Under the pieces are notes generated by a model. It had not been told where the DNA came from and searched no databases. It saw nothing but the letters and a program-made list of their open reading frames with translations. A DNA stretch of 64,000 nucleotides from Neisseria sp. 83E34 (GTDB lineage: Bacteria > Pseudomonadota > Gammaproteobacteria > Burkholderiales > Neisseriaceae): NCBI RefSeq assembly GCF_001308015.1, contig NZ_LGYH01000002.1:124001-188000 (forward strand), in the 5' to 3' direction. Shown one piece after another: positions 36,750 to 44,733 of this stretch. The translations under genes were made by a program, and so were the position numbers. Position 1 is the stretch's first letter. Every line of letters begins with the position of its first letter.

Positions 36750-39700
36750 GTTGTAGCTTCCTCTCTCATCTCGTAGTGCTACAATAAGGGAAACCCGCAC
36801 CCCGCGTCCTGATTTGTTGTAGCTTCCTCTCTCATCTCGTAGTGCTACAATCTGGCCGATATGCGCCAACACATCCATCTCGTTGTAGCTTCCTCTCTCA
36901 TCTCGTAGTGCTACAATGCGTGCCTCCTCCGGAAAACGCCCGTTATAGTTGTAGCTTCCTCTCTCATCTCGTAGTGCTACAATGCGTGCCTCCTCCGGAA
37001 AACGCCCGTTATAGTTGTAGCTTCCTCTCTCATCTCGTAGTGCTACAATGCGTGCCTCCTCCGGAAAACGCCCGTTATAGTTGTAGCTTCCTCTCTCATC
37101 TCGTAGTGCTACAATTTGAAGCCCGATAAAGCGATTGAGTGGCTTGTTGTAGCTTCCTCTCTCATCTCGTAGTGCTACAATCCCAATTAGTCATTTCCTG
37201 CCCCTTTAAAAGTTGTAGCTTCCTCTCTCATCTCGTAGTGCTACAATAGGAAATGGCAACCATGCAGGCATTTTTGGGTTGTAGCTTCCTCTCTCATCTC
37301 GTAGTGCTACAATCGGTTTTGATACCATCCCGGGCAGCGTTCGGTTGTAGCTTCCTCTCTCATCTCGTAGTGCTACAATAAAAACGGTGATAACCGCATT
37401 ACTCGCTTCGTTGTAGCTTCCTCTCTCATCTCGTAGTGCTACAATAATAATGCGGAGGAGTGGGCTGTGTCTTCTGTTGTAGCTTCCTCTCTCATCTCGT
37501 AGTGCTACAATTGCGGGAGATATTTAATCCACTTTATCGGCAGTTGTAGCTTCCTCTCTCATCTCGTAGTGCTACAATTCCTGTCATGGTGTATGGCAAG
37601 TTTCCAAGGTTGTAGCTTCCTCTCTCATCTCGTAGTGCTACAATAGCAGCCTCACCAACAACAATACCAGCTATGTTGTAGCTTCCTCTCTCATCTCGTA
37701 GTGCTACAATAGCAGCCTCACCAACAACAATACCAGCTATGTTGTAGCTTCCTCTCTCATCTCGTAGTGCTACAATCGTAAAGATGCGTGCCGCTCCAAA
37801 TACTCGGTTGTAGCTTCCTCTCTCATCTCGTAGTGCTACAATTGGATTCCCAATCGGAACCGACTTTTTCGCGTTGTAGCTTCCTCTCTCATCTCGTAGT
37901 GCTACAATTCCCAACCCGTTTTTGCCGCGTTGCAACCGGTTGTAGCTTCCTCTCTCATCTCGTAGTGCTACAATATTGGGCATGGTGTTATGGCCACGCC
38001 ACGCGTTGTAGCTTCCTCTCTCATCTCGTAGTGCTACAATGCATCTATCAAATCAGGCAACAGGCTGCCGGTTGTAGCTTCCTCTCTCATCTCGTAGTGC
38101 TACAATAGAGCCTTTGCTTGAGATTTTGAACCTGATGTTGTAGCTTCCTCTCTCATCTCGTAGTGCTACAATGGGTAGCCGAAGTAAAGCTAAGCAACCT
38201 GAGTTGTAGCTTCCTCTCTCATCTCGTAGTGCTACAATTGCTTTTTCAGCATAGACCTTAGCAACATAGTTGTAGCTTCCTCTCTCATCTCGTAGTGCTA
38301 CAATCTCACCTTATCGTCTAAGCCTAACGTACTTGTTGTAGCTTCCTCTCTCATCTCGTAGTGCTACAATACGCATCAATGCGCTGGGACATACTTTCAG
38401 GTTGTAGCTTCCTCTCTCATCTCGTAGTGCTACAATATTAATGGCGGTATTCCCACAAATAAGTGAGTTGTAGCTTCCTCTCTCATCTCGTAGTGCTACA
38501 ATACGCTTTAGACGGCCAAATGATAAGATTTTGTTGTAGCTTCCTCTCTCATCTCGTAGTGCTACAATACGCTGCATTTTTTTATCAGTCTTACGCCGGT
38601 TGTAGCTTCCTCTCTCATCTCGTAGTGCTACAATAAAACCAAGTTATCACCCAATTCTTTCCCTGTTGTAGCTTCCTCTCTCATCTCGTAGTGCTACAAT
38701 CCTTTCGGCGATGCTGCCTGTTGAATTTGGGTTGTAGCTTCCTCTCTCATCTCGTAGTGCTACAATCACTAATTTCATTGCTACGACAACTATCATGTTG
38801 TAGCTTCCTCTCTCATCTCGTAGTGCTACAATCAATATTCAGCTATTAGTTTTGCATCTTGCGTTGTAGCTTCCTCTCTCATCTCGTAGTGCTACAATAC
38901 TAGCAGTTCCCCCCTCCCTCAAGATCAAGTTGTAGCTTCCTCTCTCATCTCGTAGTGCTACAATCGGAAACATGGAGATAACGGCATTAATCATGTTGTA
39001 GCTTCCTCTCTCATCTCGTAGTGCTACAATGATAGTGGCCATGCTGAAAGCCGATGCGGGGTTGTAGCTTCCTCTCTCATCTCGTAGTGCTACAATCGTG
39101 TTATTTTCCGTGTTGTTGATCGTGGTGTTGTAGCTTCCTCTCTCATCTCGTAGTGCTACAATGAACATCACGGCAAACAGCATAAAAAACGAGTTGTAGC
39201 TTCCTCTCTCATCTCGTAGTGCTACAATGCTTAAGGTTGTGTATGCAATATGACTATCGTTGTAGCTTCCTCTCTCATCTCGTAGTGCTACAATTACGAA
39301 ATGTTCGTATGCTTCGCTTTTTGCGTTGTAGCTTCCTCTCTCATCTCGTAGTGCTACAATTTAACCTTAGAGCCACCACCCGAACCGCCGGTTGTAGCTT
39401 CCTCTCTCATCTCGTAGTGCTACAATATTGAATTTAAACAGGCGGTCTTACGTTAAGTTGTAGCTTCCTCTCTCATCTCGTAGTGCTACAATTTTACCGG
39501 GCAGCGGAAGACGGCGTCAGTCGTTGTAGCTTCCTCTCTCATCTCGTAGTGCTACAATACTCGGATGCTGGGTTATAAGAATAATATCGTTGTAGCTTCC
39601 TCTCTCATCTCGTAGTGCTACAATCATAATACTGATTGTTTGAGGCGAGGGGCAGTTGTAGCTTCCTCTCTCATCTCGTAGTGCTACAATTAGGTGGATT

Positions 39701-39756
39701 AGTGTAGAAACAGCACTTCCGTTGTAGCTTCCTCTCTCATCTCGTAGTGCTACAAT
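36750..39756 (+). CRISPR. Type II-C CRISPR array, 46 repeats
   Basis: Forty-six 36-base repeats (GTTGTAGCTTCC...GTGCTACAAT) with 45 spacers, giving a 66-base period with one 31-base spacer (12th, 37512-37542) and all others 30. Repeats seem identical from first to last. Each ends TGCTACAAT, an extended -10 box, so every spacer could be transcribed from its own repeat as known for N. meningitidis. The tracrRNA anti-repeat pairs with the repeat read on the plus strand, so crRNAs run toward the cas genes. Spacers 3, 4 and 5 (first bases GCGTGCCTCC) are identical, as are the two at 37645 and 37711 (AGCAGCCTCA). Confidence 0.98.
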
Positions 39757-39819: not shown

Positions 39820-40152
39820 TTAAAAAAGCAAAAGTTGGTCGGCATTCACCTTTTTTTCGCGAGGTTTTGGCTCACCAATAAGCATAACCATGCTTGCATA
39901 TTGTTTTTCTGTTACCTCTAAATAGCGGACTTGGCCTTCTTCGGGTAAATGTAGTAACAGTCTTTTGTGGTGTTTCTGCAACGCATCTCTTCCTTTTACA
40001 ATGCGCGAATAAACTGACAATTGCAGCATGTGATAGCCGTCTTTCTGTAAAAATTTACGAAATTGATTGGCGGCTTTTCTCTTGGCTGTAGTGGTTACAG
40101 GTAAGTCAAAGAAAACGATTAAGCGCATAAATTGGGCCTCACTCATAATCAT
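39820..40152 (-). CDS. cas2: CRISPR-associated Cas2
   Basis: 110-residue Cas2 of the subtype II-C kind. It has the ferredoxin-like start [20 protein letters not shown] with the Asp expected at the end of the first strand and [14 protein letters not shown] in the middle. Cas2 forms the structural core of the Cas1-Cas2 spacer integrase. It overlaps the end of cas1 by 14 bases and is the last gene of the cas9-cas1-cas2 unit. Either of the first two Met codons could start translation. Confidence 0.95.
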
Positions 40153-41050
40153 GTACCTTTAAGCTCAGCATTTGTGGCAACTTTAACAGCTTGGGCTTGT
40201 TTTGGCTGATGGCCGTCTGAAAAGATTGTATGGTGCGGTCTATGGCAGCCAATACACTATATTTGTTTCCGTCCAAAGCTGTTTGGCAGCATAACAAAGA
40301 GATTAGTTGTTGTTTGTTTGCGGGTGTAAGCTCCTCTGGCAGACTGTTTGAAAGCATCTTGTCGTAAACCAATAAATCAGTAATGGGGCGGTATGGTTCG
40401 ATAAAGTCGTCGGCCAAATTGAAAGGATTGAGTTCGCTGCGGTGGTGCAGTCCGAGCGCAGGTAGAAAGCCGTATTGCACAAGCGCGCGGGCAACGGCCG
40501 AGCGCAGAATGCTGTAACCGTAATTCAAATGGGCATTGACGCTGTTTTCATGACTGCGGGTAAATTGTTCTCCGAACAGTACGCGGAAATACACAGCGGC
40601 AGCTTGGCTTTCGGCAAAGTCTTTATCGCCGGATTTTACGCTGTCGGCCAAGGCGTTCAGACGGCCTGCGGCAATATCGTGGCCGCTGTAATCGAGCAGC
40701 CAAGCCTGATTGCGGATTTTCTGTTTCACAATCTGTTGCCACAGCTGCTTTTTTTGCGGTTCTGTCATATTGATTTGTTGTTTGAGCACTTTCAGGATGC
40801 GATGATATTGTGCAAACGGCAGCCATTGGCCGCAGGGCAAGAACTGTTCGTCGCAGGTAAGCAGGGTGATGCCGTGTTGTGCCAGGGCTGACAGTAACGG
40901 TGCGGTTAGTACCACTTCCCGTGCTTCGACCACAATCACGGCGATGTCTTCCAGCGGTATAGGTATGGCTTCGTCCTGTTGAATCAGCAGATGGCTTTGT
41001 TGCAGCGACAGGCGTGCAGGGCGGCTGATTAGAATACTGCGCCAAGTCAT
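40139..41050 (-). CDS. cas1: CRISPR-associated Cas1 integrase
   Basis: 303-residue Cas1 of type II. The opening [20 protein letters not shown] is followed by the strand-rich N-domain, and the metal-binding catalytic residues lie in [19 protein letters not shown] (Glu nearby) and [24 protein letters not shown] (His and Asp/Glu). Cas1 with Cas2 inserts new spacers. It begins 83 bases after the cas9 stop; a hairpin lies between (41100-41125). It contains one AG-DUS-like inverse (near 40206). Confidence 0.96.
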
Positions 41051-44100: not shown

Positions 44101-44343
44101 GCGGCGCAACCGCAGTAAACGGTGGGCGCGGCGGCGGATTAAGCGGCGCACACTGCGCGCCTGCCTGCGGGCCAAGGCTAAAGAATCGCCTGTTTTCGGC
44201 ACTTCCGCCCGTTCAAACGTGCGTACCCCGCAATCCAGCAGGCCGACGGGATTTTCCGCTCCATCCACTAAGATCAAGGCCCAGCCTACTGAAGCAATAC
44301 CCAAATCCAAACCCAAAATATAGCGTTGCGGCTGTTTTTTCAT
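41134..44343 (-). CDS. cas9: Type II-C Cas9 nuclease
   Basis: 1069 residues, close to N. meningitidis Cas9 (1082). Ruv[16 protein letters not shown] has Asp13; the Arg-rich bridge helix is at about 59-86 ([20 protein letters not shown]). RuvC-II is at [10 protein letters not shown] (Glu507), HNH at [20 protein letters not shown] (Asp590, His591), and RuvC-III at [12 protein letters not shown] (His729, Asp732), so both nuclease centres are complete. The REC lobe spans about 90-460, and the last 250 residues hold the PAM-interacting domain, whose specificity cannot be read by eye. AAGGGGAAG precedes the ATG at 44343. A promoter at 44389-44417 fits its start. Confidence 0.98.
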
Positions 44344-44388
44344 TTCTTCCCCTTTTCATCTTGATTTACAAAAAAATACATACGCTTA

Positions 44389-44417
44389 TTTATAGTAAAG
44401 AAATAAATATTTGACAA
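44389..44417 (-). promoter_or_regulatory. cas9 promoter
   Basis: On the minus strand, -35 TTGTCA (44417-44412), 17 bases, -10 TATAAA (44394-44389). A start near 44382 would give a leader of about 40 bases to the cas9 ATG. Its -35 box overlaps that of the tracrRNA promoter. Confidence 0.8.
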
Positions 44418-44439
44418 GTGTTTTCATCATCATTAGAAT
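44411..44439 (+). promoter_or_regulatory. tracrRNA promoter
   Basis: Consensus -35 TTGACA (44411-44416), 17 bases, -10 TAGAAT (44434-44439); transcription should begin about 44446, just before the anti-repeat. Confidence 0.85.
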
Positions 44440-44445
44440 CAAATT

Positions 44446-44573
44446 TATTGTTGCACTACGAGATGAGAGCCGTTGCTACAATAAGGCCGTCTGAAAAGAC
44501 GTGCCGCGACGTAAAGATTCAGAAATGAGTTGAGCCCCTGTTTAAGTCCGCTTAAACAGGGGCATCGTCTTTA
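44446..44573 (+). ncRNA. tracrRNA
   Basis: The anti-repeat TTGCACTACGAGATGAGAGC (44451-44470 on) is complementary to the CRISPR repeat with a central bulge and continues to GCTACAAT. The next hairpin, GGCCGTCTGAAAAGACGTGCC, has stem CGTCT/AGACG and loop GAAA and includes an AG-DUS. The end is a 13-base-pair terminator stem (44534-44546 with 44551-44563, GCCCCTGTTTAAG). The layout matches N. meningitidis tracrRNA, but about 20 extra bases lie before the terminal stem. It is transcribed away from cas9. Confidence 0.93.
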
Positions 44574-44594
44574 TTAATATCTGAAAAAGCCTGT

Positions 44595-44733
44595 TATGGT
44601 GAATCAACTTAGAAATAGTACGCTCGTCATACTCGGGCTTGACCCGAGTATCTCGAGCTCCGATAAACTCAGAAGATACTCGGATCAAGCCCGAGTATGA
44701 CGCTATCGTTGTTATCTAAGTGGATTGACTATA
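44595..44733 (+). repeat. 139-bp Correia-like MITE, copy 5
   Basis: Ends TATGGTGAATCAACTTA and TAAGTGGATTGACTATA. It lies immediately beyond the tracrRNA terminator, and a DUS follows at about 44742. Confidence 0.85.

Follow-up and report, generated by a model that had tools for sequence, protein, structure and literature searches.

Predicted cas9 and tracrRNA promoters with overlapping -35 elements at a Neisseria type II-C CRISPR-Cas locus

The PR and PRM promoters of phage lambda are divergent sigma-70 promoters that lie some 80 bp apart and show polymerase interference. They stand back to back, as do the two promoters considered here, but they are governed by a repressor and have no -35 hexamer in common. 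In E. coli, according to excerpts of the work of Warman, Grainger and colleagues (PMC12825309, PMC10268837), the symmetry of a core element allows promoters of opposite direction to overlap, with mutual exclusion of polymerase; these bidirectional promoters share a -10 element and have start sites 7-25 bp apart. Among CRISPR-Cas systems, the extracts of PMC3936727 describe for meningitidis and P. multocida a cas9-cas1-cas2 gene order, with the tracrRNA beside cas9 and an array that is read against the cas operon.

The locus studied here lies in a 64,000-nucleotide stretch of DNA from Neisseria sp. 83E34 (the window), and it has the same gene order, tracrRNA position and array direction as those systems. 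Its cas genes are cas9, cas1 and cas2 only, accompanied by a tracrRNA and an array, which places it in type II-C (Table 1). It differs from the systems in those extracts in the gap between cas9 and the tracrRNA: the meningococcus-like gaps of the present comparison have separate -35 boxes. The closest named relatives of the locus are those of Neisseria wadsworthii (L031) and Neisseria sp. MVDL19-042950 (L032). Identical BLAST hits were obtained for spacers 3, 4 and 5 of the array, and likewise for spacers 14 and 15, and these are probably duplicated spacers. A dispersed palindromic element with arms CTCGGGCTTGACCCGAGTATC is found nearby at 44632-44695 and at six other places, and its arms are matched 14 times in the 64 kb, as 7 pairs.

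Table 1. Features of the CRISPR-Cas locus and of the gap between cas9 and the tracrRNA, in window coordinates.
Feature	Position	Strand	Remarks
CRISPR array, 46 identical 36-nt repeats, each ending TGCTACAAT	36750..39756	+	
cas2	39820..40152	-	TIGR01573, 88.5 bits
cas1 (type II, NMENI)	40139..41050	-	TIGR03639, 322 bits
cas9, 1069 aa	41134..44343	-	TIGR01865, 783.7 bits
Predicted cas9 promoter -10, TATAAA, 17-nt spacer	44389..44394	-	predicted start near 44382
AT-rich block behind tracrRNA -35, doubling as cas9 spacer	44395..44411	.	cas9-strand AAATATTTATT
tracrRNA promoter -35, TTGACA (consensus)	44411..44416	+	TTGAC core conserved in most of 59 homologous gaps
Predicted cas9 promoter -35, TTGTCA	44412..44417	-	5-bp overlap with tracrRNA -35
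tracrRNA promoter -10, TAGAAT, 17-nt spacer	44434..44439	+	from sequence and relatives
Predicted tracrRNA	44447..44570	+	anti-repeat 44447-44482, DUS-like stem 44484-44495, terminator hairpin 44534-44563; 3' end inferred
Broken copy of repeat-embedded extended -10, TGCAACAAT (array: TGCTACAAT), toward cas9	44447..44455	-	
Intact extended -10 copy (TGCTACAAT) inside anti-repeat, tracrRNA strand	44474..44482	+	

The first-pass annotation had placed a cas9 and a tracrRNA promoter on opposite strands of this gap, and on re-reading of the sequence its hexamers, 17-nt spacers and coordinates proved exact on both strands. The tracrRNA promoter agrees with the sigma-70 consensus at 11 of 12 positions with a 17-nt spacer, and the anti-repeat (44447) begins 7 nt past its -10, in agreement with the start predicted near 44446. 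When folded, the predicted tracrRNA is far more stable than its shuffles (z -5.5). The stem that follows the anti-repeat contains AGGCCGTCTGAA, which we take to be a variant of the DNA uptake sequence (DUS) and which is 1 of 31 such variants in the window. Behind the tracrRNA -35 is the AT-rich block, possibly an UP element of the tracrRNA promoter, whose TGTCAAATATTTATT is unchanged in L001, L003, L004, L005, L020 and L028.

The predicted cas9 promoter agrees with the consensus at 10 of 12 positions, also with a 17-nt spacer, and the cas9 ATG (44343) lies 45 nt beyond its -10. A promoter scan of the gap reported the plus-strand tracrRNA promoter only, because the scan rule requires a -10 whose sixth base is T. 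TTGACA is close to a palindrome, and the heptamer TTGACAA has TTGTCAA as its reverse complement; this gives the two -35 boxes their 5-bp overlap and supplies a -35 with 5 of 6 matches on the opposite strand at no cost. Judged from its sequence, the gap is best read as two back-to-back promoters with overlapping -35 boxes. It falls outside the definition of a bidirectional promoter given in the excerpts of PMC10268837, as its predicted starts are 64 bp apart, its -10 elements are separate, and it is the -35 that is shared.

The frequency of such an overlap was gauged with a null model in which the tracrRNA hexamers were fixed and the remainder of the gap was shuffled 300 times per locus, scored with promoter matrices of E. 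coli values. In the window, 32% of shuffles had the overlapping -35 in their top-scoring cas9-strand promoter, and in 6% that promoter also equalled or exceeded the observed score; a cas9-strand promoter at any place reached that score in 11%. The overlap is only weakly above chance in the window; it is real, but not rare given a TTGACAA heptamer in AT-rich DNA. Across the 43 gap clusters the overlapping box was the best-scoring cas9 -35 in 11, against 5.8 expected (sd 2.1), a modest excess that leaves room for some selection on sharing. A search of 45 genomes for a two-sided pattern around TTGACAA returned 12 matches in 11 genomes; a decoy heptamer gave 1 match and a backward control gave 3. 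Five of the 12 matches are one recurring sequence, the baseline is without one-sided promoters, and the pattern demands a final T that is absent from the window's own site. We draw no conclusion from this search, and the shared -35 as a widespread Neisseria architecture was set aside.

For comparison across relatives, Cas9 was sought in three sets of genomes, those of the genus (45 searched, 25 matched), of the family (82 searched, 33 matched) and of the Actinobacillus minor family (140 searched, 37 matched), and in a named genome collection, which gave 25 loci. The 101 loci in total reduced to 92 with a visible Cas9 start and to 66 distinct upstream sequences. A recognisable anti-repeat is present in 59 of these (43 clusters); the seven without one (L037, L053 and L058-L062) were dropped. 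The Cas9 tree has 56 rows, was built by a quick method and has many weak forks, and the shared -35 state was labelled on it by hand. The tracrRNA promoter is kept in most of the 59 gaps, with a TTGAC-like -35, a 16-17 nt spacer, a TAnnnT-like -10 and a near-fixed distance to the anti-repeat; weaker -35 boxes occur in L006, L046, L055 and L066.

The predicted cas9 promoter, by comparison, is mobile. A -35 shared by cas9 and the tracrRNA is seen in the window, in L031 and L032, which are identical here, and in L004 (TATAAA at an 18-nt spacer), and is also listed for L001; from their sequences, L007 and L008 may share it too, with poorer -10 elements. L004 retains TTGTCA and TATAAA despite an otherwise changed gap. 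Conservation of the shared hexamer in other loci, which the first-pass annotation had named as a check on its proposal, was not found: the shared state is credible in only 6 of the 56 tree rows, all within one well supported 11-row clade, that of the window, and with at least 4 changes. In L003, L005, L020 and L028 a C precedes TGTCAA and TATTAT lies further down, and in L005 another candidate, which overlaps the tracrRNA -35 by 1 bp, scores slightly higher. Gaps of the dentiae type carry CTGTCAA. Where the tracrRNA hexamer permits, a T before TGTCAA showed no association with a good -10 at 16-18 nt (16 vs 6 clusters, p = 0.43).

Positions 44288-44587 are 99-100% identical among the window, L031 and L032, with adjoining stretches of cas9 at 92-94% in L032. 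Recombination or constraint could account for this, as both would fit; given such near-identity, L031 and L032 are not independent evidence for the overlap. Much of the adjoining cas9 is less alike than this block, its later parts falling to about 50% identity in places, and the sequence suggests that cas9 is a mosaic.

A TTGCAT/TTGTAT/TTGCTT-18-TATATT is conserved in every one of the 12 meningococcus-like gaps, among whose named members are N. bergeri, N. iguanae and N. weixii; its -35 begins 12-17 nt from the tracrRNA -35. By prediction, these 12 gaps supply the related loci with separate -35 boxes that the first-pass annotation had named as evidence against its own proposal. The matrix favours other candidates in three of them, an overlapping one in L017 and L018 and a different one in L022, and these higher-scoring candidates tell against the separate-promoter reading there. 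In Pasteurellaceae, 23 of 36 gaps fit the rule for an extended -10 of the TGnTAAAA type and 10 were left without assignment; most of the extended -10 elements are too distant from TTGTCA for a normal spacer. The overlap looks, from the gaps compared, like a local outcome of tight packing and not a conserved switch.

Start sites were predicted 7 nt past each -10, and a cas9 -10 was assigned by rule in 46 of the 59 gaps. The predicted start-to-start distance is 64-83 bp in 43 of the 46 and 23-32 bp in L080, L084 and L089. From anti-repeat to ATG the gap measures about 100 nt in most loci and is longer in L006, L046, L047 and L065. It is just 94-95 nt in L080, L084 and L089, where the predicted cas9 TATAAT lies within the tracrRNA promoter spacer. 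RNA polymerase has a footprint of roughly -55 to +20. Footprints of this size would overlap at all of the predicted distances, so that hindrance between polymerases may be general across the gaps although the shared hexamer is not. The first-pass annotation had held that only one polymerase could bind at a time: at the predicted 64 bp of the window two could hardly fit, but a shared hexamer is not the general basis for this. Its further claim, that the overlap ties production of the nuclease to that of its RNA, is unsupported. Exclusion means competition, and in the excerpts of PMC12825309 five bidirectional promoters of E. coli had too little basal activity to compete, and competition set in only once one direction had been strongly raised. 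If the same holds here, the tracrRNA promoter, being near consensus, could occlude cas9 without the reverse, and the two outputs would not be tied. The predicted 23 bp of L084 is within the 7-25 bp range of the E. coli bidirectional promoters.

In type II-C arrays the repeats themselves contain a promoter, according to excerpts of PMC8616872 and PMC6282205, and in all 22 arrays detected the repeat end is an intact extended -10 (TGCTACAAT, TGCTATAAT or TGGTATAAT). As the anti-repeat is an inverted copy of the repeat, the same extended -10 would point at cas9. Examination of the 59 gaps revealed that this cas9-strand copy is broken in every one, whereas its tracrRNA-strand twin is intact in 57. 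The breaks vary: the first base of the -10 may be A or G, three nucleotides may be inserted, the last T is lost in L046, and there are others; on the Cas9 tree the copy changes state at least 11 times, and none of these changes makes it intact. The breaks would be explained if a promoter that fires into cas9 were selected against. Alternatively, what is kept may be an interruption in the repeat:anti-repeat duplex at the RNA level; the tracrRNA-strand twin, for its part, is under constraint from its pairing within the guide. Self-hairpin avoidance was rejected as the cause of the anti-repeat change, as the two ends of group D anti-repeats are still complementary to each other over 6-7 nt. We tentatively entertain, as a possibility, that the anti-repeat is a captured inverted repeat whose cas9-facing promoter has been disarmed in every lineage examined, leaving cas9 subordinate to occupancy of the tracrRNA promoter. 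Under such disarming, cas9 would have to rely on a different promoter, one lodged directly behind that of the tracrRNA.

We consider it probable that two ordinary promoters of the sigma-70 type stand back to back in the gap, that of the tracrRNA pinned and that of cas9 mobile, between which overlap arises easily and occlusion is mild. The tracrRNA promoter, which its 11 consensus matches and the AT-rich DNA behind it suggest to be strong, would be pinned to the anti-repeat because the RNA must start there. The cas9 promoter would be free to move and would have settled 16-35 bp behind the tracrRNA -35, varying by lineage; in the window's clade cas9 would use the tracrRNA -35 itself, read from the opposite strand, which the reverse complementarity of TTGACAA and TTGTCAA makes easy. 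If both promoters fire, polymerase could not hold both, and we infer that the stronger tracrRNA promoter would mildly occlude cas9 with the outputs left unlinked. The first-pass annotation had instead seen in the shared -35 a selected device, in which exclusion at one hexamer balances the nuclease against its RNA cofactor. The perfect 17/17 geometry of the window, the retention of both hexamers in L004 and the excess of clusters sharing by best score (11 of 43 vs 5.8) speak for this view, yet most relatives lack the state or have lost it (present in 6 of 56 rows, at least 4 changes), CTGTCAA stands in dentiae-type gaps, the T is not linked to a -10 at the right spacing and the window null gives 6-32%; we regard it as quite improbable. 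Selection for closeness, not for the hexamer, would hold the starts 64-83 bp apart, with mutual hindrance through whichever cas9 promoter is in place. It would cover 43 of 46 assigned gaps and take the three interlocked at 23-32 bp as the extreme of the same arrangement, but the gap is short anyway (about 100 nt), so that mere compactness may suffice, and 13 of 59 gaps have no assigned cas9 -10 while the four longer gaps also stand apart. This we think unlikely.

A further reading, in which cas9 is governed chiefly at its own promoter by Fur, MisR or similar regulators and the overlap with the tracrRNA promoter is irrelevant, seems to us rather doubtful. The extracts of PMC13431127 report that in N. 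meningitidis 8013 both H2O2 and iron limitation raise cas9, whose -10/-35 has predicted sites for Fur and MisR; these sites are, however, predictions, in another species and at a different cas9 promoter. Autoregulation by tracr-L in S. pyogenes also links the tracrRNA region to a cas promoter, but in the excerpts of PMC8616872 it requires a long tracrRNA with an upstream repeat-like part. The window gap has no repeat-like guide part upstream of the tracrRNA, and a natural tracr-L-like guide was rejected there; the 6-7-mers tried from the 5' end of the repeat had no match in 44343-44446, and no array spacer agrees with 44343-44600 at 11 or all 12 of its final 12 bases. A literature search that lacked key transcriptome studies returned no published tracrRNA or cas9 start for this gap, and, as far as this same limited search extends, the shared -35 is so far unreported.

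If selected, the shared -35 would be a protein-free setting of the Cas9:RNA ratio; the comparison argues against that ratio being set through a shared -35 across the family. A near-palindromic -35 makes promoter overlaps cheap. The broken anti-repeat promoter may matter more than the shared -35, as it offers a testable pattern: within the anti-repeat, the repeat-embedded promoter aimed at cas9 never survives intact.
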